Notes under the pieces: generated by a model
Seen by the model: the letters and a program-made list of their open reading frames with translations, nothing else
Told to the model about the DNA's origin: nothing
The model's database searches: none
Source: a virus
Virus record (IMG/VR): IMGVR_UViG_3300022848_000082
Coordinates: 1 to 22,826 of that record
Reading direction: 5' to 3' (one strand)
Length of the DNA stretch: 22,826 nt
Part shown: piece after piece, positions 1,410-17,658 of the stretch
Layout of the letters: each line of letters begins with the position of its first letter
How positions within the stretch are numbered: the stretch's first letter is position 1
Translations under genes and position numbers: made by a program

Positions 1410-1883
1410 TCAACGGTTCAGTTGAGCCTTGACTCGATCGCCCATCGTTGATGCCGATTTAGCGGGCGTCTTGGCCTGCTTCGCGGGTTGAGCGGCCGCC
1501 GACGCCTCGTTTGACGGCGCCCCCCCCTGCGATGATATGAACTGGGCGAACATTGCGAGCATCTCGGCCGGCATGGCCGGCATGGCCGGCATGGCAACTG
1601 TCGGCGCTTCCACTGTCGGCGCTTCCACTTTCGGCGCTTCCACTTTCGGCGCGGCCTGCTGTGCCGTGGCTGCGTCCATCGCGTCGAGCATCTTTTGGAA
1701 CGTCTTAGCGTCGCCAAGAATCGCGTGCAATTCGTCGCGATAGATGGAGCGGAAGCGCCCCCGGGCACCAGCCTGCAATTGCAGAACTGGTGTAGCATCG
1801 GATCGTCCACCGAACGTGGTGAGCTGTGCTGTAAAAGTCGTTTTGCCATGGACGACTTCCGAAATGATCTGATTCGTGGTCAT
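1410..1883 (-). CDS. Unknown protein with an Ala/Pro/Val repeat linker
   Basis: A 157-residue protein on the minus strand. The ATG at 1883 is preceded by CTGGAGAATCACA, the same Shine-Dalgarno context used by its plus-strand neighbours. The N-terminal 75 residues (MTTNQIISEVVHGKTTFTAQ onward) look like a small folded domain with beta-strand character. Then comes a low-complexity linker of KVEAP/TVEAP repeats and MPA repeats, then a helical stretch (EMLAMFAQFISSQ) and an Ala/Lys-rich tail. I do not recognise the family. It diverges from the DUF932 gene, and both have their own copy of the 22-bp element upstream, which suggests the same class of regulation. Confidence 0.75.
   Translation of the reverse strand: MTTNQIISEVVHGKTTFTAQLTTFGGRSDATPVLQLQAGARGRFRSIYRDELHAILGDAKTFQKMLDAMDAATAQQAAPKVEAPKVEAPTVEAPTVAMPAMPAMPAEMLAMFAQFISSQGGAPSNEASAAAQPAKQAKTPAKSASTMGDRVKAQLNR
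1568..1652. repeat. In-frame short tandem repeats (9-bp and 15-bp units)
   Basis: Three tandem copies of CCGGCATGG (1568-1594) are followed by three full copies and one partial copy of a 15-bp unit TCGGCGCTTCCACTG/T (1601-1652). Both unit lengths are multiples of three, so the array encodes the MPA and VEAP repeats of the minus-strand gene and can change length without a frameshift. Confidence 0.9.
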
Positions 1884-2050: not shown

Positions 2051-2088
2051 TCCATTGCATCGATTGACTTGAATTGAATTCCGCCAGC

Positions 2089-2110
2089 CACCACCCCCCT
2101 GCCCACCTTG
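2089..2110 (+). promoter_or_regulatory. Early 22-bp element, copy B
   Basis: CACCACCCC-CCTGCC-CACCTTG, ending 59 bp before the preferred ATG of the DUF932 gene. It pairs with copy A across the divergent intergenic region. Confidence 0.75.
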
Positions 2111-2169
2111 GACCGACAGCACCGGGCACTTGGCTCGGTAGCACCTGGTTCATTCTGGAGATTGATACA

Positions 2170-3156
2170 ATGCCCGCTTACTTCGATAAGGGACTCATGG
2201 TCGGACAGTCCGCATGGCACAAAGAGGGAACGGTGATTCCCGAAGACGATGATCGACGATTCGACATTGCCGCCTGCATCGGACTCGCCGACATGGACGA
2301 TACGATCATCAAAGGCCGCTGCTTCTACGTTCTCGATGAAGAGGACGGACAACCGTGTGACGAAGTTGAAGGGTCTTACGTCACTGTGCGTAGGTATGCC
2401 GATGGGTCTTACAAGGCCCTTGGGACCGTCGGCAGCAAGTACCAGCCATTGCAACCTCGGGAGGCGTTCGATTGGTTCCAACCGTGGCTCGAAACTCGGG
2501 AAGTGTCGATCGAGACCGCCGGGACTCTGCAAGGGGGCCGCGTTGATTGGGTGATGGCTCGCATCCTTCGGGACAACGTGGATGTCGGTGGGGGCGACGA
2601 GATCGCCAAGTATCTCATGCTCTCGACCGCTCACGATGGGTCACAAGCGACGTATTTGGGGTTCACGCCTCAACGGGTCGTTTGCAGCAACACGTTGGCG
2701 ATGGCCACGAGCAACAACGCATCGAAGTTACTTCGTGTCCGTCACACCAAAGGGCAAGAGCAAGCGTTGTCGACGATTCGAGAGACCATCGACCTGATCG
2801 ACCGCGAATTCAATGCGACTGGCGAGCAGTATCGCACGATGATGGAATGCAAAGTCAATCTGTCGGACATTCGAGCGTATGTCAAAATGGTCAACTCGGT
2901 CGATCCTGACATTGACGACGATGCGATCGGCAAGAAGATCGGCAAACGCATCAACGACATGGTGGGGATGGCCGTTGACGGTTTGGGGCAATCGCCAAAC
3001 GATCTAACGGCATGGTCAGCGTACAACGGGGTCACTCAGTATTTGAGCCACAAGTACGGATCGGATAACGAGAAACGTGTCGTTTCGATGATGCGAGGGA
3101 CCGCTGCCGATATGGGTCGTCGTGCTTACGATCTTGCGTTGCAATTGGCCAGCTAA
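2170..3156 (+). CDS. DUF932 family phage/plasmid protein
   Basis: A 328-residue protein. The start at 2170 is chosen because it has TTCATTCTGGAG just upstream and because the protein then begins MPAYFDKGLMVGQSAWHKEG, the usual opening of DUF932 (TIGR03299) proteins. The longer frame from 2074 would translate through the 22-bp element. The central part has the family-typical stretch STAHDGSQATYLGFTPQRVVC followed by SNTLAMA, then RVRHT (about residues 150-195). DUF932 proteins are common in phages and plasmids and are often encoded near replication or recombination genes, but the biochemical function is not settled. The gene ends in TAA, whose last two bases belong to copy C of the 22-bp element, and a terminator follows. 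Confidence 0.88.
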   Translation: MPAYFDKGLMVGQSAWHKEGTVIPEDDDRRFDIAACIGLADMDDTIIKGRCFYVLDEEDGQPCDEVEGSYVTVRRYADGSYKALGTVGSKYQPLQPREAFDWFQPWLETREVSIETAGTLQGGRVDWVMARILRDNVDVGGGDEIAKYLMLSTAHDGSQATYLGFTPQRVVCSNTLAMATSNNASKLLRVRHTKGQEQALSTIRETIDLIDREFNATGEQYRTMMECKVNLSDIRAYVKMVNSVDPDIDDDAIGKKIGKRINDMVGMAVDGLGQSPNDLTAWSAYNGVTQYLSHKYGSDNEKRVVSMMRGTAADMGRRAYDLALQLAS

Positions 3157-4405: not shown

Positions 4406-4816
4406 ATGTCAAACACAAGAACAATCACGCTCACCGGCCGTCCACCCGTGACGATCAATGAGGAAAACTGGCCGATGTTTGCCTCGGCCAGCGACAAGTC
4501 CCATGATGGACAGATCGAGTGTCAAGCTAACCGAATGACCAGATGGTTTATCGGTGTTCGCAAACACAAAGACGGCCGAGCGATCGTCAACGCAACTTAC
4601 AGTTACACGTCCAACTGGCAGGGGGCGCGGGACTATTCCGCCAAGCGAGGCGTCTTGCTCGATGGATCGCCGGATGTATCACAGATCATCGACGCGATCC
4701 ACGAAGTCGCCAACGAGATTGCGGAAGCAGAGCACAACAGCGAGGAGCACATCGCAAGATGGCCGACACTCGTTGCCGAGGTGATCGCTGACATGCCAGC
4801 CGAAAATTTGGAATAA
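4406..4816 (+). CDS. Unknown protein (136 residues)
   Basis: The start at 4406 (MSNTRTITLTGRPPVTINEE) is preferred over the open frame beginning at 4118, because the latter would read through the membrane-peptide gene, the 22-bp element and the leader hairpins. The ribosome site is weak (ACAGG). The protein has a beta-rich N-terminal half with FIGVRKHKDGRAIVNATYSY and a helical, acidic C-terminal half (residues about 90-136). No family is recognised. A strong terminator follows. Confidence 0.68.
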   Translation: MSNTRTITLTGRPPVTINEENWPMFASASDKSHDGQIECQANRMTRWFIGVRKHKDGRAIVNATYSYTSNWQGARDYSAKRGVLLDGSPDVSQIIDAIHEVANEIAEAEHNSEEHIARWPTLVAEVIADMPAENLE

Positions 4817-4890: not shown

Positions 4891-5526
4891 TCAACCGCGA
4901 GTATCGCACAGAAGCGAGACCGAGTAGATCACCGGTGTGACCGCCGTCCCCGTGGCCGCGTCGTTACAAGCGACCGCGATCCGCACGTCCAAGAGATCGC
5001 CAGGGTCAACGCCACTGGCATCAATGGTGAAGTCGACATCGGCCGGCGTCAGGCTGTTCATCGTCGCCGCTGCGGTCGTTACCAACTCCGCGCTGACACT
5101 GCCCGCCCCATCGCTCTTACGCGCCTCACAGTCCACCGTGCAGGTCGTGTCGGCAACGGTGGTTTCCATCGCACATCGCAGCCGCAACTGGATCGTCTCG
5201 CCGTCCTGATAGTGATCCGGCACCGGGATCTGGAACCTTGCGTACCGGGTGGTCGCCCCGGCTGCCTTGAGGTCTCCCGCTAGGAGTTCTGGGCAGTTAG
5301 TGCCAAACGATCCCGCGTCGATTCCCAGGTCATCGGATGCCGCTGAAGCTGGCAAGAGAGAGGTGATCGCATCGTGAACGCGACCATTGGTCAGTGCAAC
5401 AGGGATCTCCTGCAACACCCTTTGCGCTAGCTTCTCGACGCCGATCGCAGCCTGGGAACTGATACATCGATCAGTGACAAAGCTGTCAGGAAGGATAATT
5501 GTGGTTGACTCGACAATGGTGGTCAT
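4891..5526 (-). CDS. Unknown beta-rich, virion-like protein on the minus strand
   Basis: A 211-residue protein from the ATG at 5526 (MTTIVESTTIILPDSFVTDR). A GTG at 5559 would add 11 residues. The upstream GAGATCAG is a modest ribosome site. The middle and C-terminal parts are rich in Thr, Ala and alternating hydrophobic residues (FTIDASGVDPGDLLDVRIAV, then CNDAATGTAVTPVIYSVSLL). This fits a beta-sandwich structural protein. Similar compositions occur in phage virion proteins, but this is only a compositional judgement. It is the only minus gene in the 2-10 kb stretch and no copy of the 22-bp element faces it, so it may be expressed at a different time. Confidence 0.65.
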   Translation of the reverse strand: MTTIVESTTIILPDSFVTDRCISSQAAIGVEKLAQRVLQEIPVALTNGRVHDAITSLLPASAASDDLGIDAGSFGTNCPELLAGDLKAAGATTRYARFQIPVPDHYQDGETIQLRLRCAMETTVADTTCTVDCEARKSDGAGSVSAELVTTAAATMNSLTPADVDFTIDASGVDPGDLLDVRIAVACNDAATGTAVTPVIYSVSLLCDTRG

Positions 5527-7279: not shown

Positions 7280-7810
7280 ATGGACATTCCCAATCTAATC
7301 AATCGGATGCGTAGCGGTGACACACTCGCTGCCCGTGGATTGATCGAGGCACAACGACACGGACGGGCGCTGCGATTGTATCCCGACGGACGCAACGGAC
7401 CCAACGACGAAGGCGTCGCACCAATCCTGCTGGAACAAACCGAAAACCTGCTCGTCCATCTGCGACTAGGGCGACCCTGCATTGTCGTTCTCCGACGCGA
7501 CCAACTCGGCCCGGTCTTGATGTTCCTGTTCCGCTGCTCTGCCCGTATGATGGCGAACCTAGATCGGTACGATGAATCATCGATCACGCCAGGCATCGGA
7601 TACCAGACCGGATGCACCAACGATCCATGGAAAATCGTGATTTCCTTTTCACCACACGGGCGAATCGATTACGATCTCGGCATCGAGGACTGCATCAGTA
7701 TCATTACTTCATGGCTTACGTTCATCGACCAGCACGAGTGGGAAATCGACGACTGCTCGCTGACCGACGAAGAATACATGGCCCTTTCCCATATCGCCAA
7801 TCATGTGTGA
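7280..7810 (+). CDS. Unknown protein (176 residues)
   Basis: The ATG at 7280 has CCAAGGAACATC upstream. The sequence begins MDIPNLINRMRSGDTLAARG and has no signal peptide or membrane segment. The C-terminal part (WEIDDCSLTDEEYMALSHIA) looks helical. No family is recognised. The stop codon lies within the 5' box of the first attC-like site, as happens with cassette genes, but I find no matching cassette boundary upstream of it. It may be the last phage gene before the cassette array, or the 3' gene of an eroded cassette. Confidence 0.68.
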   Translation: MDIPNLINRMRSGDTLAARGLIEAQRHGRALRLYPDGRNGPNDEGVAPILLEQTENLLVHLRLGRPCIVVLRRDQLGPVLMFLFRCSARMMANLDRYDESSITPGIGYQTGCTNDPWKIVISFSPHGRIDYDLGIEDCISIITSWLTFIDQHEWEIDDCSLTDEEYMALSHIANHV

Positions 7811-7930
7811 ACGCTTGCGATAACCGGTCGGCTTCGTGGCACTCATTGATCCTCAAAAGACAAAACCAAAAACCAATTTTACAACCCTCCCCAGATGATC
7901 GCCGATCCGCGTTCATCGCATTGTTACTCG
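7806..7930. repeat. attC-like site 1
   Basis: The left arm starts with box TGTGAAC (7806-7812), then GCT, then TGCGAT and further bases to 7832. The right arm, 7901-7930, pairs with it: GCCGA, CCG, GTT and ATCGCA match after reverse-complementing the left arm. An unpaired T follows GCCGA, and an unpaired C precedes ATCGCA. The right arm ends TT-GTTACTC, with the predicted crossover after G7923. The central loop is about 68 bases. The next gene begins at 7935. Confidence 0.68.
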
Positions 7931-7934
7931 TCTC

Positions 7935-8264
7935 ATGCACAAAATCACAGCAACGTCATTCAGTGAAATAGCTGAACTGTCAGCATCATCAGAGTGCGAG
8001 TCGTACTCACAAGCATCGTACAATGTCTTTTGTGCGTTAAATCAGCGGGCGAATACGCTCATGTTTGTGGGCGAACACGCCATCGTAGGAATTGAGCAAA
8101 TCGTTTGTCACGACACCGATGGTTGCGACGAATACGAATTGAGAGAGGCTTGTGAGAATCTCCGAGCGATCGTCATATTTCTCAAAAGTACGAAACTTGA
8201 AACCGCTGTCAAATATGCCAGAGCAGTAGCGAAGGCCGAGAAGTTCCTGAAAGAGTACGAGTAA
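7935..8264 (+). CDS. Cassette A gene, unknown protein (109 residues)
   Basis: The ATG at 7935 lies only 11 bases after the predicted cassette boundary and has no Shine-Dalgarno sequence. The product (MHKITATSFSEIAELSASSE at the start) is mostly helical, with five Cys residues in the first 90 residues and a Lys/Glu-rich final helix. The DNA is more AT-rich than its neighbours, which fits foreign origin. The TAA stop is part of the R''-type box CGAGTAAC of site 2. No family is recognised. Confidence 0.62.
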   Translation: MHKITATSFSEIAELSASSECESYSQASYNVFCALNQRANTLMFVGEHAIVGIEQIVCHDTDGCDEYELREACENLRAIVIFLKSTKLETAVKYARAVAKAEKFLKEYE

Positions 8265-8350
8265 CGCTTTGATTATCCCGTTTTGCGGCGGGAAAACTAA
8301 ACCTAACCGATTGATCTTGACCGCAAACGGGATCAATCAATTGTTCGTGC
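8258..8350. repeat. attC-like site 2
   Basis: Box CGAGTAAC (8258-8265), then GCT, then a left arm TTGATTATCCCGTTTTGCGG (8269-8288). The right arm CCGCAAACGGGAT-C-AATCAA (8321-8340) pairs with it apart from one extra A on the left and an unpaired C on the right. The right end is TT-GTTCGTG with crossover after G8343. The loop is about 32 bases. CGAGTAAC is the exact complement of GTTACTCG at site 1. Confidence 0.72.
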
Positions 8351-8359
8351 GGTGCGATT

Positions 8360-8578
8360 ATGTGGGATGACATTGACGACGAGGGAATCGTTGCGGGCCG
8401 AGAAATCGAAACGCACTGGAAGTCATGCGGCGGGTTCGGGATCGACTGGGATCGAAACGTGTTTATCGTCGAAGGCGACGGCGGGCATGTGAATCTTGAA
8501 ATTCGGATACCGCTATCGGATCTTGTAGACGCTGGATTTACCCTGCCAGACAAAGGCAGCAGCAAGAGCAATGGGTAA
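8360..8578 (+). CDS. Cassette B gene 1, unknown acidic protein (72 residues)
   Basis: The ATG at 8360 lies 16 bases after the cassette boundary, again without a clear ribosome site. The product (MWDDIDDEGIVAGREIETHW at the start) is acidic and beta-rich. Its stop overlaps the next start in ATGGGTAA, so the two are translationally coupled. No family is recognised. Confidence 0.58.
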   Translation: MWDDIDDEGIVAGREIETHWKSCGGFGIDWDRNVFIVEGDGGHVNLEIRIPLSDLVDAGFTLPDKGSSKSNG

Positions 8579-8792
8579 AATTAAGGGCCGACCACGAAAG
8601 TCAAACGAGCCTGTTTATGTCGTCAAAGGTTGCCCAGCAGACGAACGCCGCAGTGTCATTCGGACACTCGGCAAGTTTGCGAAACGCCAGCAAGCAAGGC
8701 AGTGGTGCCGCAACCAAGGCAGTTGGGAATATGCAGAATTGATAATCATCCACCCTGATGGAACGAGAGAGGAACACCAATGGCAGAGTTAA
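8571..8792 (+). CDS. Cassette B gene 2, small basic protein (73 residues)
   Basis: The start at 8571 overlaps the end of the previous gene. The product is basic at the N-terminus (MGKIKGRPRKSNEPVYVVKG) and contains KFAKRQQARQWCRNQG, which suggests a small nucleic-acid-binding protein, although no fold is recognised. The 3' end overlaps the next start by 13 bases. The three coupled frames fit a compact operon within one cassette. Confidence 0.58.
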   Translation: MGKIKGRPRKSNEPVYVVKGCPADERRSVIRTLGKFAKRQQARQWCRNQGSWEYAELIIIHPDGTREEHQWQS

Positions 8793-9118
8793 AAGTTGGC
8801 GACCAAGTGGAAGTGATAGACGAAGGGCTGGCGATGCTTCGCCGATTGTGTCCGGGGATGCCCCCGAACCATCGCGGAAGGATCGAGGAAATCGACGGCG
8901 AAGATGGCAAAGCACAACGGACGGCGATACATCGGGATCGAAGTGAACCCGGAGTATTGCGAGATTGCAGAGAAACGCTTAGCGCAACAAGTGCTGTTCT
9001 AGGTCAGGGGAACGCTGCCGATAAAAAGCGACGGCGAGAAAACGTAACCATCACCAACCAACCCAAAGCCGTCGTCTTTTTCAACGGCTTGTTACGATCG
9101 CGACCAGTAAAACCATGA
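8780..9118 (+). CDS. Cassette B gene 3, truncated KOW-like protein fused out of frame
   Basis: The ATG at 8780 is followed by MAELKVGDQVEVIDEGLAML, then RRLCPGMPPNHRGRIEEIDG. This resembles the start of short SH3/KOW-like proteins in which VGDxVxV opens a beta-barrel. From about codon 40 the sequence loses this character. In the +1-shifted frame the DNA encodes a DNA methyltransferase tail instead. The frame then runs through attC-like site 3 and stops at 9118, which is not how an intact cassette gene behaves. The natural C-terminus seems to have been lost in a deletion or recombination near 8890-8905. Confidence 0.5.
   Translation: MAELKVGDQVEVIDEGLAMLRRLCPGMPPNHRGRIEEIDGEDGKAQRTAIHRDRSEPGVLRDCRETLSATSAVLGQGNAADKKRRRENVTITNQPKAVVFFNGLLRSRPVKP
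8889..9002 (+). pseudogene. DNA methyltransferase C-terminal remnant
   Basis: In the frame starting at 8889 the DNA reads STAKMAKHNG followed by RRYIGIEVNPEYCEIAEKRL and AQQVLF, stopping at TAG 9000-9002. GRRxIGIExxPEYxxIAxxRL is the typical end of N4/N6 amino-group DNA methyltransferases. The catalytic (D/N/S)PP(Y/F) and AdoMet-binding FxGxG parts are absent, so the fragment is not an active enzyme by itself. An internal ATG at 8904 could start a 32-residue peptide. The stop lies five bases before the R''-type box of site 3, the normal position for a cassette gene end. This suggests the cassette once carried a whole methyltransferase. Confidence 0.72.
9007..9098. repeat. attC-like site 3
   Basis: Box GGGGAAC (9007-9013), then GCT, then the left arm GCCGATAAAAAGCGACGGC (9017-9035). 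The right arm from 9068 is GCCGTCG-T-CTTTTT-C-AACGGC. It pairs with the left arm apart from one mismatch and has unpaired T and C six bases apart. The right end is TT-GTTACGA with crossover after G9091. The loop is about 32 bases. Confidence 0.7.
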
Positions 9119-9420
9119 TTACGAAAACCCGGAAAGAAGTGACGGAAGCGGTGTTGTCAGCATTGCACCAAGAGATCGGCGGTGACGTTTTGTTCCGCGA
9201 AGTTTACTACGGGCTGTTTTGGAACGGTCCGGAGAAAGAGCGATCGCCGGAGCAGTGGTTTGACGACTTTCAGTGGTTCACGAAAAAGTTCATTCACATC
9301 GCGGCAGCGAAAGACTTGCTGTTCGCGTGGCATACGTGCAATCCCGATAGCGACATCACGCCGACAGGATTCAGTGATGATCAGATGACGATGCACTTCA
9401 AGCGGAAGTCGTCGTCGTAA
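9115..9420 (+). CDS. Cassette C gene, unknown protein (101 residues)
   Basis: The ATG at 9115 lies 23 bases after the cassette boundary with no obvious ribosome site. The product (MITKTRKEVTEAVLSALHQE at the start) is mainly helical and rich in aromatics (YYGLFWNGPEKERSPEQWFD), ending in a basic KRKSSS tail. No family is recognised. The TAA stop is embedded in the box TCGTAAC of site 4. Confidence 0.62.
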   Translation: MITKTRKEVTEAVLSALHQEIGGDVLFREVYYGLFWNGPEKERSPEQWFDDFQWFTKKFIHIAAAKDLLFAWHTCNPDSDITPTGFSDDQMTMHFKRKSSS

Positions 9421-9505
9421 CGCTTCCAATCAACCGGTTGCGGCCAGTTGATTTCCCACTTCAAAAACCTTTACCCGCAACTCGGTTGCATTGGATTGTT
9501 ACGTT
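9415..9505. repeat. attC-like site 4
   Basis: Box TCGTAAC (9415-9421), then GCT, then the left arm TCCAATCAACCGGTTGCGG (9425-9443). The right arm CCGCAAC-T-CGGTTG-C-ATTGGA (9475-9496) pairs perfectly with it except for the two unpaired bases. The right end is TT-GTTACGT with crossover after G9498. The box pairs with the right end over six bases. The loop is about 31 bases. This is the cleanest of the four sites. Confidence 0.75.
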
Positions 9506-9560
9506 CGGGCACAAGTCCGGCAAGGCAGCAACAACGCACTGGGTGACGTTCATCAAGTGC

Positions 9561-9598
9561 GGATAACAAGTAATTACCCTGCGCCGCGCAGGATAACA
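9561..9598. repeat. Repeat/palindrome upstream of the recombinase genes
   Basis: GGATAACA occurs at 9561-9568 and 9591-9598, 30 bp apart, flanking the palindrome CCTGCGCCGCGCAGG (9578-9592). It lies in the 9506-9624 gap just before the two-gene recombinase unit, a usual place for a res-type crossover site or an operator. I see no gene in this gap. Confidence 0.4.
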
Positions 9599-9624
9599 CA
9601 CCAGACTGTCATCAAAAGAATACC

Positions 9625-9834
9625 ATGCCTCTTCCCGATCTGACGACTCGCCAGCAATCCACTCTCATCAACAAGGTGGATCACAACTGCCGTCGAAATG
9701 GCAAGAGATTCCTGCGTGATCTCGGCGGAACTGGGCACGCCGCTGAACTCGACGCGCAATTACAAATCGCCCGTAACAATCCCGATGCGGTGAAAGCCGC
9801 CGAACTCTTTACGAAGGAGAAAGATCGGAAATGA
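9625..9834 (+). CDS. Small unknown protein upstream of the recombinase (69 residues)
   Basis: The ATG at 9625 has only a weak ribosome site. The product begins MPLPDLTTRQQSTLINKVDH and is helical and charged. Its stop overlaps the recombinase start in ATGA, so both are translated together. It could be an accessory factor of the recombinase, but there is no recognisable motif. Confidence 0.62.
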   Translation: MPLPDLTTRQQSTLINKVDHNCRRNGKRFLRDLGGTGHAAELDAQLQIARNNPDAVKAAELFTKEKDRK

Positions 9835-10655
9835 AAGTCATAGGATATGGTCGTGAATCGACCGCCGACCAATCGATTTCTGCCGAAGTGCAGCAGCGAC
9901 AATGCCGCGAGTGGTTTGACCGAACATTCAAGGACAATCCTGACGCGAAGTTTGTGCGAATGCTCAACGACGAGTCCGTCTCAGGCAAGACACGCCTGTT
10001 CCAACGTCCGCAGGGGAGTCTCCTGTTGACCATGCTCGAACGAGGCGACACCGTCGTCGCGTCCAAAATGTCACGGATGTTTCGATCCATGCCCGACACG
10101 GTCAACACGCTCGACGTGTTCAATGAAGCCGGCATCAAGGTCGTGCTGCTCGACATCGGCATGGACTTCGACACGCCAGTGGGCAAACTAATCTTCCACA
10201 TCCTCGGGGCAGTCAATCAGTTTGAACGCGAACTAATCTCCGAGCGGACCAAGGAAGCTCTCGCCCAGCTCCGTGAACGTGGCCAATACCTCGGCTCACC
10301 ACCGCCGGGGTGGAAGTTCGACAGCAAGCGGACCAACGGGATTCGGGAACTGATCCCTGACATGGACCGCCGCACCTTCGGGGAATACTCCCTCGATCAA
10401 CTGGTCGAAGGCCGATCCGCCAAGTCGATTGCCTGCGAGATCGAAGCACTATTGCGGCGCGAGCACATCCAACGACACGGCACCAACCTGAAGGAAAAAC
10501 GAGAGAAGATCGCGTTCTCCGACACCGATGTCGTTCGACTCGCCGCCTTTGCAGTGGCCGGGTTCCCGCCGATCAATAGCACGGCGCTGAAAAAAGTCCT
10601 CGGTGTCAATCCATTCCGAGTTGAAACCCTGCGGCAACTGGCAGCGTCCGCCTAA
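9831..10655 (+). CDS. Serine recombinase (resolvase/invertase family)
   Basis: A 274-residue protein. The start at 9831 has AAGGAGAAA upstream. The N-terminal catalytic domain (about residues 1-145) opens with IGYGRESTADQS, placing the nucleophile at Ser10. It also contains VVASKMSRMFRSMPDT (the resolvase K..R..R signature) and FERELISERTKEAL, which begins the long E helix. The enzyme would form a 5'-phosphoserine link to DNA during site-specific recombination. The C-terminal 125 residues are longer than in small resolvases but much shorter than in large serine integrases. The end (TALKKVLGVNPFRVETLRQL) looks like a DNA-binding helix-turn-helix. It could be the phage integrase or a resolvase/invertase. 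It is not an integron integrase, since those are tyrosine recombinases. Confidence 0.88.
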   Translation: MKVIGYGRESTADQSISAEVQQRQCREWFDRTFKDNPDAKFVRMLNDESVSGKTRLFQRPQGSLLLTMLERGDTVVASKMSRMFRSMPDTVNTLDVFNEAGIKVVLLDIGMDFDTPVGKLIFHILGAVNQFERELISERTKEALAQLRERGQYLGSPPPGWKFDSKRTNGIRELIPDMDRRTFGEYSLDQLVEGRSAKSIACEIEALLRREHIQRHGTNLKEKREKIAFSDTDVVRLAAFAVAGFPPINSTALKKVLGVNPFRVETLRQLAASA

Positions 10656-14212: not shown

Positions 14213-14803
14213 GTGCCCCGCCCTGCTGACGAACCTGCTTTCACGCCCGAGCATCCGCCGGGCGACGAAAAGTTCTGCACGCTATGCGGGGAAGAAAAAC
14301 CCATCGACGAATTCCACGTCGATGAGTCGGCTCATGACGGACGCAAGTCCAATTGCAAGGCGTGCCGATCACTTCAGCACGCCGAAGATGTGGAGTCTAA
14401 GGTCGACCCCCGCCTCGCCAAGATTGAAGAGGCAGGACTCGAAGCGCTCGACGCCTTCGCGGGTGGCGGATCATTCAACCCGCACACCCAAGAGCTGATC
14501 GACGGGTTTATGAGATTCCTGGGCGGTCACTACGGCCTGGTGAAACTGACGATGGCCCACTACCACGCGGCCAAACCAGGCAGTGCCGAGCGAGGGAAGA
14601 CACTCGATAAAATCTACCGGCTGATCGCCGCTGAGGACAAGCAGGATGGCTCGCTCGACAAACTTGACCGACGCCAACTCGAAGCCCTCGTCGTCAGCAT
14701 CGGCACCAAAGCCGGGATGCTGCCCAAGCCGAACGACACGCTGTCTCTCGATCACCCCGAAACCGTCAACGCGATCGCCCGTTCCAAAGGCGACGCACTA
14801 TGA
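14213..14803 (+). CDS. Putative small terminase subunit with zinc-finger N-terminus
   Basis: A 196-residue protein beginning at GTG 14213 with AGGAAG upstream. Near the N-terminus it has FCTLCGEEKPIDEF, then about 14 residues later NCKACRS. This is a CxxC...CxxC zinc site like that of endonuclease-VII-like and HNH-associated zinc domains. The rest is helical (KLDRRQLEALVVSIGTKAGM). It overlaps the large terminase gene in ATGA, the usual place for the small terminase, which recognises packaging DNA. A nuclease role cannot be excluded, but no His-Me active-site motif is visible. Confidence 0.55.
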   Translation: MPRPADEPAFTPEHPPGDEKFCTLCGEEKPIDEFHVDESAHDGRKSNCKACRSLQHAEDVESKVDPRLAKIEEAGLEALDAFAGGGSFNPHTQELIDGFMRFLGGHYGLVKLTMAHYHAAKPGSAERGKTLDKIYRLIAAEDKQDGSLDKLDRRQLEALVVSIGTKAGMLPKPNDTLSLDHPETVNAIARSKGDAL

Positions 14804-17658
14804 TTGACGACATCGAATTCAGTGACATCGATCTTTCGACACACCTCGACACCGCCAACGAGATGCAGTCGGGCAGCGAAGCCAACGACTACGTGATCGA
14901 CGAGTATCACCTGCACAAGATGCACTCCGCAGCGTCGGAGATCCAGCGCCGGGACATGGAGGCGATGCGGATCTATCGCCCCTCCAAAATCCAAGAGCAG
15001 TACCACGCATCCACTGCCAAGGAGACCGTGTTCGTTGCCGGGAACCAAATCGGCAAATCCATTGCCGGATACTCGGAAGACGGACGAGCTGCCGGTGGAT
15101 GCGACCCGTACGGCAAGTACCCCGAGAAAGATGGCATCCTGGCCATCGTGGTCTACAAGGAATCGCAGATCAGGCTGAACACCTATCGGTATCTCCTCAA
15201 GCCCGGTGCGTTCGACATCATCCAAGACGAAGAGACCGGCATCTGGAAACCCTATTATCCCTGGGTTCCCTCCGATGTTGCTCGCGCCGATCAACGGCGG
15301 CCCGCCCCACCGATCCTTCCACCGCGAATGATTAAGAGAATCCACTGGAAGTCCAAGATGGGCAACGTCCTGTCTCGGATCGACATGGAGAACGGTTGGG
15401 AGATTCACGTCTTCTCGTCGACCGCGAAACCAGATGCCGGGTTCCAAGCCGACCTCGTTCATATCGATGAAGACATCGCCAACGAAGAATGGTACGTCGA
15501 GATGATCGCCCGTCTCTCGATCCGCAAGGGACTCCTGCGATGGACCGCCCTACCGCTGTTCGATAACGACGCGCTGCCTCGTATCGTCGAACGGGCCGAC
15601 GACGAAGCGGAGAAGCACGCACGCGGCGGACCTGTGCCTACCACGACGGTCGTTCGCGGAACCATTTTCGATAACCCGTACCTGACCGACGATACCCGCG
15701 AAGAAAACATCAAGCGATGGAAGGACGCGGGCGACGATGTCTACCGGCAACGTGCCCTCGGAGAACTCATCACCGACACGGTTCGGATGTACCCGACGTT
15801 CACGCCGGAAATCCATGCCGTCCAACGTTACGGCGAATCGCATCCTGAGTTGTTCGGCGAGTACCTTCGCACCCGTCGAATCCCCGACGATTGGTGTCTG
15901 AGATTGTTTGTTGACCCTGGGTTCTCCACCTGTGCCGCGTTGCTGTTCGCGACCCTGCGACCCGAGGGCGGCGACGACTCCGAACCAATGATTCACGTTG
16001 CTGTGCGTGAAATCTATCGCCAGCAATGTGACGCCTCGATCTTTGCCCAACTCGCCTCGCAAACCGTTGGCGATCGATGGTTGCAAGCGATGGTCATCGA
16101 CGCCCACGGTGGTCGACTCACCGGCATCGGCGATGGTCGGCGTCCACAAGAGATCTACGAAAGCGAACTGGCCGAACGAAACGTCGTGTGCGTGGAGACC
16201 GGCTCTCGCTTCCGTGCTGGCTGCGACGACATCGTCTACCGGGAAACCGCACTGCGACAACGGTTGATCGTCTCGCCAGTCACCGGGCTACCGGAGTTTA
16301 TGTACGACGAGGAGATGTGCCCGAACCTTGAAAAAGAAATGGTGCGGTTCCGAAAGCTGAGAACCCGTGGCGTCATCACCGATAAAGGCAACCGCAAAGC
16401 ATTTACGCACGCTGTCGAGTGTTTCTGTGACCAAACCGAAGTCCTTACTGAAAGTGGCTGGAAGCGTTTTGCAGACGCCAGTATCAGCGACCGTTTAGCG
16501 ACCGTGAACTTGGATACCGATACGCTTGAGTTTCAGCATCCATCTCGAATTGTTGAAAGACCTCACAACGGACCGATGGTTCATGTTCACGCACAGAAGC
16601 TCAATGCGATGGTCACTCCTAATCATCGGATGGTTTACTACTCCGACACCGCAAGGCGAAAAAAGACAGGTCCATCTATCTGTTTCGCGGGCGACCTGTC
16701 TCCAAGCTATGCGTTAAAGCTGGCGGCAAAAAACTGGAACGCAGTTTCACCAAAGACATTCGTGCTGCCTGCGGTAGAACTGGATTCGCGACCAGGTAAG
16801 CCTGCCGAATTAAACAGACTCGACTTCGCCCGGTTCATGGGATGGTACATCGCCGAAGGCTCTGCGGACAAAACAGTGCGTTGCCCTGGAAAGGGCTATC
16901 GCGTGTGCATTGCACAGAGAAAAGAACACGGCATCAACGCGATTCGCGAAATGCTTTCAAAGCTACCGTTTCATTTCGTTGTATCGGGCGACTGCTTCGT
17001 GATCTCCAACAAGCAACTGTGGTCGTACCTTCGCCAGTTCGGAGACTGCTACACCAAGTTCGTTCCAGACTGGGTGCGACACGGAAGCAGAGAAGTCATC
17101 GAGTCGTTTATGGAAGGCGCTATGGCTGGCGATGGGTGGGTACAAAAGAACGCTCGACGATACGGAACCTCCAGCCCCCGCCTCGCCGACGACATCCAAG
17201 AACTATTCCTCAAACTCGGTTGTTCTGCATCTGTCACTGTTCGGTCGGCAGAGACGGCCGTGTCAAGGATGGTGAGAGGAAAGCCCTGCAAATCTACCTG
17301 TGATTTCTTCACGGTAATCGAGAGGCTTGTTCCGAGCGTCCGCCTTAGTGACGCACACGACAAGCCGAATTTCAGCACAACGAACTACACCGGAAAGGTG
17401 TTCTGCGCAACCGTCCCCAATGGGACTCTTGTTGTAAGACGCAACGGCCAACCGCTCGTCGCTGGCAATTGCTATGAGTACGCAGCCGCCGACGAACTCA
17501 AGTACCACGCACCTCCCGCCCGTCGAACCCGCGAAACCCCCGGCGAACGTCGTGTTCGGATGTGGCGGGAACGCCAAGCGAAGCGACGAAAACAAATGGG
17601 TGGCGCTCTCGGCGTCATCCATGGCGGCATCGACCTGTCTGCTCCCATGCCCACTTAA
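14800..17658 (+). CDS. terL: Phage terminase large subunit, interrupted by an intein
   Basis: A 952-residue precursor; without the intein it is 602 residues. The ATPase half has a Walker A-like GNQIGKS (residues 81-87) and Walker B LVHIDED with D223/E224. The nuclease half (RNase H fold) shows FVDPG with D372 and VIDAHGG with D434. The mature protein would read HAVE-CYEYAAADEL at the splice junction, placing the intein in the last conserved nuclease motif near the C-terminus. TerL pumps DNA into the procapsid and cuts the concatemer. It starts inside the end of the preceding gene (ATGA). Splicing is needed for function, since the intein separates the last nuclease motif. Confidence 0.9.
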   Translation: MIDDIEFSDIDLSTHLDTANEMQSGSEANDYVIDEYHLHKMHSAASEIQRRDMEAMRIYRPSKIQEQYHASTAKETVFVAGNQIGKSIAGYSEDGRAAGGCDPYGKYPEKDGILAIVVYKESQIRLNTYRYLLKPGAFDIIQDEETGIWKPYYPWVPSDVARADQRRPAPPILPPRMIKRIHWKSKMGNVLSRIDMENGWEIHVFSSTAKPDAGFQADLVHIDEDIANEEWYVEMIARLSIRKGLLRWTALPLFDNDALPRIVERADDEAEKHARGGPVPTTTVVRGTIFDNPYLTDDTREENIKRWKDAGDDVYRQRALGELITDTVRMYPTFTPEIHAVQRYGESHPELFGEYLRTRRIPDDWCLRLFVDPGFSTCAALLFATLRPEGGDDSEPMIHVAVREIYRQQCDASIFAQLASQTVGDRWLQAMVIDAHGGRLTGIGDGRRPQEIYESELAERNVVCVETGSRFRAGCDDIVYRETALRQRLIVSPVTGLPEFMYDEEMCPNLEKEMVRFRKLRTRGVITDKGNRKAFTHAVECFCDQTEVLTESGWKRFADASISDRLATVNLDTDTLEFQHPSRIVERPHNGPMVHVHAQKLNAMVTPNHRMVYYSDTARRKKTGPSICFAGDLSPSYALKLAAKNWNAVSPKTFVLPAVELDSRPGKPAELNRLDFARFMGWYIAEGSADKTVRCPGKGYRVCIAQRKEHGINAIREMLSKLPFHFVVSGDCFVISNKQLWSYLRQFGDCYTKFVPDWVRHGSREVIESFMEGAMAGDGWVQKNARRYGTSSPRLADDIQELFLKLGCSASVTVRSAETAVSRMVRGKPCKSTCDFFTVIERLVPSVRLSDAHDKPNFSTTNYTGKVFCATVPNGTLVVRRNGQPLVAGNCYEYAAADELKYHAPPARRTRETPGERRVRMWRERQAKRRKQMGGALGVIHGGIDLSAPMPT
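16420..17469 (+). other. Intein with LAGLIDADG homing endonuclease (350 residues)
   Basis: Intein residues 541-890 of the precursor. It begins CFCDQTEVLTESGWKRF, matching the block A pattern CxxxxTxVLTxxGW. Block B is VTPNHRM with T606 and H609. LAGLIDADG motif 1 is MGWYIAEGS (680-688, acidic E686), and motif 2 is MEGAMAGDG (771-779, acidic D778). The end is TVPNGTLVVRRNGQPLVAGN, then Cys+1. The penultimate residue is Gly instead of the usual His, a variation known in some active inteins. Both catalytic acids are present, so the endonuclease may be active. Base use in this part is less GC-rich than in the exteins, as expected for an invader. Confidence 0.92.

Follow-up and report, generated by a model that had tools for sequence, protein, structure and literature searches.

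A probable integrase-less cluster of integron-type attC sites, with genes in reversed direction, in a tailed phage

The window analysed here is the whole of IMG/VR virus record IMGVR_UViG_3300022848_000082 (22,826 nt, positions 1-22,826), and its phage genes include a terminase, a P22-like portal, and head genes. Between two plus-strand backbone genes, one for a 176-aa protein (7280..7810) and the other for a serine recombinase (9831..10655; PF00239, 2e-33), lies an array of four inverted repeats and small genes. A related phage without the array (L019), whose portal is 71% identical to that of the window, has homologues of both flanking genes (the first at 1538-2083, the second at the same place as in the window), one small ORF between them, and no such repeats; the array is therefore most simply read as an insertion that starts where the 176-aa gene ends, at its stop codon. 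Elsewhere in the window, an internal part of the 952-aa terminase ORF (14800-17658) matches LAGLIDADG_3 as well as PHROGs of thymidylate synthase, PhoH, and ribonucleotide reductase, so the terminase may contain an intein, and 2074-3156 encodes a DUF932 protein (PF06067, 6.6e-41) that corresponds to phrog_1221, a family with no assigned function in PHROG.

On the plus strand the four repeats begin with AAC (at 7810, 8263, 9011, and 9419) and end with TTGTT (at 7925, 8345, 9093, and 9500). An earlier reading, made from the sequence alone, had described this frame and inner arms that differ from site to site yet pair, and both descriptions hold: the right and left arms of sites 1 to 4 are ATCGCA/TGCGAT, AATCAA/TTGATT, AACGGC/GCCGAT (one mismatch), and ATTGGA/TCCAAT. 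The unpaired C that it reported occupies the identical place in all four sites; the additional unpaired T lies six bases before the C in sites 3 and 4 as described, while that of site 1 is placed more loosely. Start-to-start distances of 453, 748, and 408 bp agree with the claimed spacing of ~410-750 bp. Site lengths are about 83-116 nt, with a variable loop. A fixed rule in this frame (AACGCT and TTGTT enclosing at least 10 of 12 inner pairs) yields four sites on the plus strand of the window and none on the minus strand; neither 300 dinucleotide shuffles of the window nor a further 1.2 Mb of viral sequence contains one. The repeats are not due to chance.

The genes of the array, which we call cassette genes, are small and mostly without assigned function. 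A 109-aa gene (7935..8264, plus strand) is the only stop-free frame of its cassette, has its stop codon within the next R box, and has a GC content below that of the phage genes; its protein has no Pfam or PHROG match and no relatives among the viral contigs searched. It is followed, on the same strand, by ORFs of 72 aa (8360..8578; no assigned function, stop-free, positive codon score) and 73 aa (8571..8792; stop-free, codon score near zero, hence weak coding support) and by a remnant comprising the C-terminal 32 aa of an N6/N4 DNA methyltransferase (8904..9002; PF01555 positions 198-221 of 221, E = 1.1e-4). The last gene (9115..9420, plus strand) encodes 101 aa of no assigned function, also stops within the next R box, and has a homologue in another viral contig (L153:2678-3016). 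Beyond site 4, a putative short cassette without a clear gene (9501..9564) ends in GT-N6-AAC; its own two ends match by one base only beyond GTT. Comparison of cassette proteins with phages and plasmids gave no matches.

Sites of the same kind were found in three further contigs. L052 (36 kb; tail tape measure, DNA polymerase, and helicase), detected by a pattern scan of viral contigs, has two attC sites. L153 (a 95-kb contig whose viral status is based mainly on its inclusion in IMG/VR) was found via the 101-aa cassette protein and has nine sites plus part of a tenth at the contig end. L159 (31 kb; RecT and exonuclease genes) was found via a leader motif and has one intact and two chimeric sites; the leader-motif matches in L158 and L161 arose by chance, and these two were rejected as further arrays. 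Outside the arrays we see no meaningful similarity between the window and these contigs at the loci compared, and nothing in the complete L052, L153, and L159 records matches the window portal. Among the cargo of the relatives, a cassette gene in L159 (3585-4370, minus strand) is similar to PADLOC SspD (phosphorothioation, E = 6.4e-11), with a weak PAPS reductase match as well, and an ORF in L153 (3791-4330, between sites 8 and 9) was recognised by eye as resembling a TnpB transposase fragment.

Over 13 sites from the four contigs, 11 of the 12 inner pairs have changed on both sides, 91% of inner-pair cells pair (compared with 28-46% in slid controls), and the covariation score is reached by none of 500 shuffles. 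Structure is thus kept while the arm sequence changes, as expected of attC sites, and an absence of covariation, the outcome that the earlier reading had named as counting against its proposal, is not what the data show. We regard this covariation of the arms as decisive.

The canonical attC frame, AACAA...AGCGTT, lies on the minus strand, so that the sequence-only reading, which had used the plus strand, had taken the boxes as their reverse complement. In the minus frame each window site has the layout NNNN-AAC-AA-N6-G-N6-...-N6-N6-AGC-GTT-NNNN, in which the R''/R' core AAC...GTT flanks paired L''/L' boxes. The extrahelical base is the ninth after AAC in all window sites, as it is in the aadA, blaVIM-2, and aac(6') attCs. 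That the boxes miss the GTTRRRY consensus is true in this frame also (R' boxes GTTCACA, GTTACTC, GTTCCCC, and GTTACGA), and VCR sites (GTTATGC) likewise miss the strict consensus. The divergence that had been tentatively read into this needs moderating: because core, extrahelical base, and spacers are those of ordinary attCs, the sites are less diverged than first thought.

A position-and-pairing scorer trained on eight plasmid attCs only, run over 1.24 Mb, places the window sites at the top when they are read on the minus strand. Site 4 (9419..9500) scores 33.4, the highest match of all, followed by site 2 (8263..8345; 26.7), site 3 (9011..9093; 25.7), and the long-looped site 1 (7810..7925; 25.3), which is last in canonical order; a single unrelated match (25.5) falls among these values. 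Read on the plus strand, the same sites score from -8 to 10 (site 1, -4.4). In the reverse direction, the seven best matches to a covariance model of six phage sites are aadA and blaVIM-2 attCs, all on the canonical strand. A plasmid-trained covariance model of loop-trimmed sites matched no window site, a miss that we judge to be technical, because loop-trimmed models could not span sites of 83-116 bases and the phage-trained model missed its own long sites too. An Rfam search returned nothing relevant to the hairpins. Layout, plasmid-trained score, and covariation agree that the inverted repeats are integron-type attC sites.

With four attCs in 1.7 kb and no intI in the record, the array qualifies as a CALIN (at least two nearby attCs, no intI), and the proposal of an integrase-less attC cluster surrounded by phage backbone genes is upheld. 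No IntI was found in the window, in line with the earlier claim, or in the L052, L153, and L159 records, although all four records may be fragments. A tyrosine recombinase in L159 was considered as a candidate IntI and ruled out by NCBIfam.

Cassette genes usually, if not universally, run in the same sense as their attC, which lies at the 3' end of the gene. In the four contigs, every cassette gene instead runs opposite to its attC, which lies at the 5' end of the gene. The co-directional genes had been taken as fitting cassettes; all are indeed on the plus strand, but this is opposite to the usual cassette direction. In the two single-gene cassettes, the sole frames without stops are on the plus strand (codon use agrees for one and is neutral for the other), and the methyltransferase tail at 8904-9002 supports the same direction; in the relatives, gene direction is set by an HNH, a DUF7736, and a methyltransferase domain. 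The plasmid controls and phage TJE1 have gene-sense attCs. Unpaired features of attC steer recombination to the bottom strand, and cassettes are inserted so as to be readable from Pc (reviewed in PMC8946536); by this rule the window cassettes would insert backwards. In L052 sites A and B and at L153:536, reading frames start inside the attC loop and have similar N-termini (MNTEDATTSAPV, MTTEKTTTGAPV, and MNTKETLPVAPV), so that attC may encode the start of a protein at these sites.

In integrons, the R' box contributes its outer part to the following cassette. A match is therefore expected between both ends of any one cassette, but not necessarily between the boxes of a standing site. Among 17 cassettes in the four contigs, the ends match for 6, 1, 4, 1, 1, 5, 2, 6, 6, 4, 3, 1, 1, 6, 6, 0, and 4 bases beyond GTT. 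The mean of 3.35 compares with 0.72 within standing sites, and none of 100,000 permutations reaches the observed sum. Cassette ends match as circular cassettes require. We also note GT six bases outside AAC (GT-N6-AAC) in 15 of 21 cassette-end boxes, a pattern spotted post hoc that may be an extended cassette-end signature of the arrays in the four contigs; it is missing from the three left-terminal boxes (those of site 1, L052_A, and L159_h1).

The left (far) end of the array reads GTTCACA in both the window and L159. At the right, both arrays are closed by the same 35-bp element (AACAAGTAATTACCCTGCGCCGCGCAGGATAACAC; 9565..9599, minus strand, in the window), which contains a strong palindrome, joins the last cassette at TTG/TT in the canonical frame, and has flanks that are unrelated between the two contigs. 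No other copy was found in the viral or bacterial collections. The element fits a candidate attI-like landing site; it may instead be a terminator-like hairpin.

Comparison of the contigs shows genes and attC sites to be reassorted among unrelated phages, since a gene and two attCs recur among different neighbours without a shared phage backbone. Window positions 9089-9420 are 84% identical in DNA to L153:2678-3016 (93% in protein), and the homology starts exactly at TTGTTACG; the left attCs of this shared 101-aa gene are unrelated, and the right attCs only loosely alike. The attC at L153:757-839 matches site 2 at 94% identity, and L159:2644-2727 is a close relative of site 3; in both cases the genes to either side differ. 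Cassettes are thus found exchanged as units between arrays, with unit boundaries that fit single-cassette exchange only partly. A fixed order of genes and hairpins across related phages, the second outcome named earlier as adverse, is not found; reassortment is seen instead. The recurrence of sites 2 and 3 without either neighbouring gene is more than one-cassette exchange accounts for and counts against the explanation we prefer below. Three attC sites, which also count against it, are chimeric and do not pair (L153 3596-3680, and L159 near 4991 and near 4415 on the minus strand); at least that near 4991 joins a left half like L153_5 to a right half like site 2. These chimeras suggest that homologous recombination also contributes. 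A VCR query gave no match in phages, and the L052 loop pattern was not found in the bacterial genomes searched.

We consider it likely that the locus is a CALIN in a tailed phage, with attCs in the minus frame, IntI supplied in trans by the host, and genes reversed relative to the usual arrangement. The array sits between two backbone genes, and with the attC frame on the minus strand, it is the plus strand that would be expected to form the hairpin that recombines. The enzyme we infer is IntI, acting in trans and most likely provided by the host; by cutting the folded hairpin at its R box it would excise or insert circular cassettes, possibly still today. Besides the points already named, the lack of an IntI match in the four contigs, the R boxes that miss GTTRRRY, and the viral status of L153 weigh against this explanation. 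Because the genes are reversed within the cassettes and the array is antisense in the phage, the cassette genes would be read together with the phage genes.

An arrangement in the normal direction, in which each gene travels with its 3' attC while the unpaired bases now sit on the opposite arm in this lineage and the integrase prefers that strand, strikes us as unlikely. It draws on the way the genes occupy the interval between one GTT and the following AAC, as they do in ordinary arrays, and on the shared gene, whose right-hand attC is somewhat more alike than the left and counts against the flipped reading (when 105 site pairs are ordered by similarity, site 4 with L153_7 comes 9th and the left-hand pair 96th). 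However, the rank of 9th means little because L153_7 resembles many sites, the AACAA and AGCGTT ends and the extrahelical base all point to the minus frame, and the array ends make sense in that frame only, with an R box without attC at the right. General homologous recombination between similar hairpins or loops, not site-specific, could have made the mosaics and would explain the chimeric sites and the attCs shared without their genes; yet a cassette-end match of this kind is peculiar to circles whose cut falls within the R box, and homologous recombination, improbable as the whole account, could add to site-specific exchange but not replace it.

That the cassettes are moved by the neighbouring serine recombinase or another non-IntI recombinase is very improbable. 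The serine recombinase lies 230 bp beyond the array and IntI was not found in the four contigs, but the enzyme belongs to the backbone and has a homologue in place in array-less L019, no array-linked copy occurs in the examined parts of L052, L153, and L159, and the sites match IntI attCs in detail; no relatives of it were found in viral contigs. Hairpins between co-directional genes might also be terminators or other transcript elements, and attCs can be weak terminators, according to PMC9892861. This explanation predicts neither the fixed unpaired bases, nor the cassette-end matching, nor reassortment among unrelated phages, and no Rfam family was found; we hold it to be scarcely credible. 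More ambitious, and possible though on balance doubtful, is a phage-specialised integron system, in which a pool of cassettes with flipped attCs would move between unrelated phages via an attI-like site carried by phages, with a host integrase or another one as the driver; the flipped attCs would then, equally tentatively, be suited to phage transcription.

Integrase-less attC clusters in phages are already published. CALINs occur in virulent and temperate phages, for example Tetrasphaera phage TJE1, and several phage CALIN attCs were shown to be used by IntI1, as reported by Qi et al. 2023 (PMC9892861). They resemble the window array in being integrase-less attC clusters in phage genomes with small genes that include methyltransferases. 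The attCs of TJE1 (1020-1071 and 1466-1515, plus strand, with plus-strand genes) are sense, whereas those of the window are all antisense. Class 1 integron cassettes (aadA1/2, blaVIM-2, aac(6')) share with the window sites the AAC/GTT core, the extrahelical ninth base, and the L boxes; aadA1 also has the AACAA and AGCGTT ends, and the blaVIM-2 attC the 2/3 spacer and six-pair L box. They differ in their gene-sense attCs, GTTRRRY boxes, and adjacent intI1 and attI1. The sedentary chromosomal integron of Vibrio sp. HDW18 (VCR-type) is similar in its tandem small genes, similar attCs, and diverse unassigned cargo, and differs in its mostly attC-sense genes, longer attCs, and bacterial replicon. 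The part of PMC9892861 consulted mentions neither cassette sharing across unrelated phages nor an end element in common. Within the limited coverage of the open-access literature searched, we found no description of consistently flipped gene direction, extended boxes, cross-phage cassette sharing, or a common end element.

The choice of attC strand has been explained as the means by which cassettes become readable from the integron promoter (PMC8946536), and a pool of opposite-orientation cassettes living in phages would be a natural test of that rule. Comparison of the arrays also indicates that phages unrelated to one another share a pool of cassettes, and phages may be partners in cassette exchange, beyond accidental carriers.
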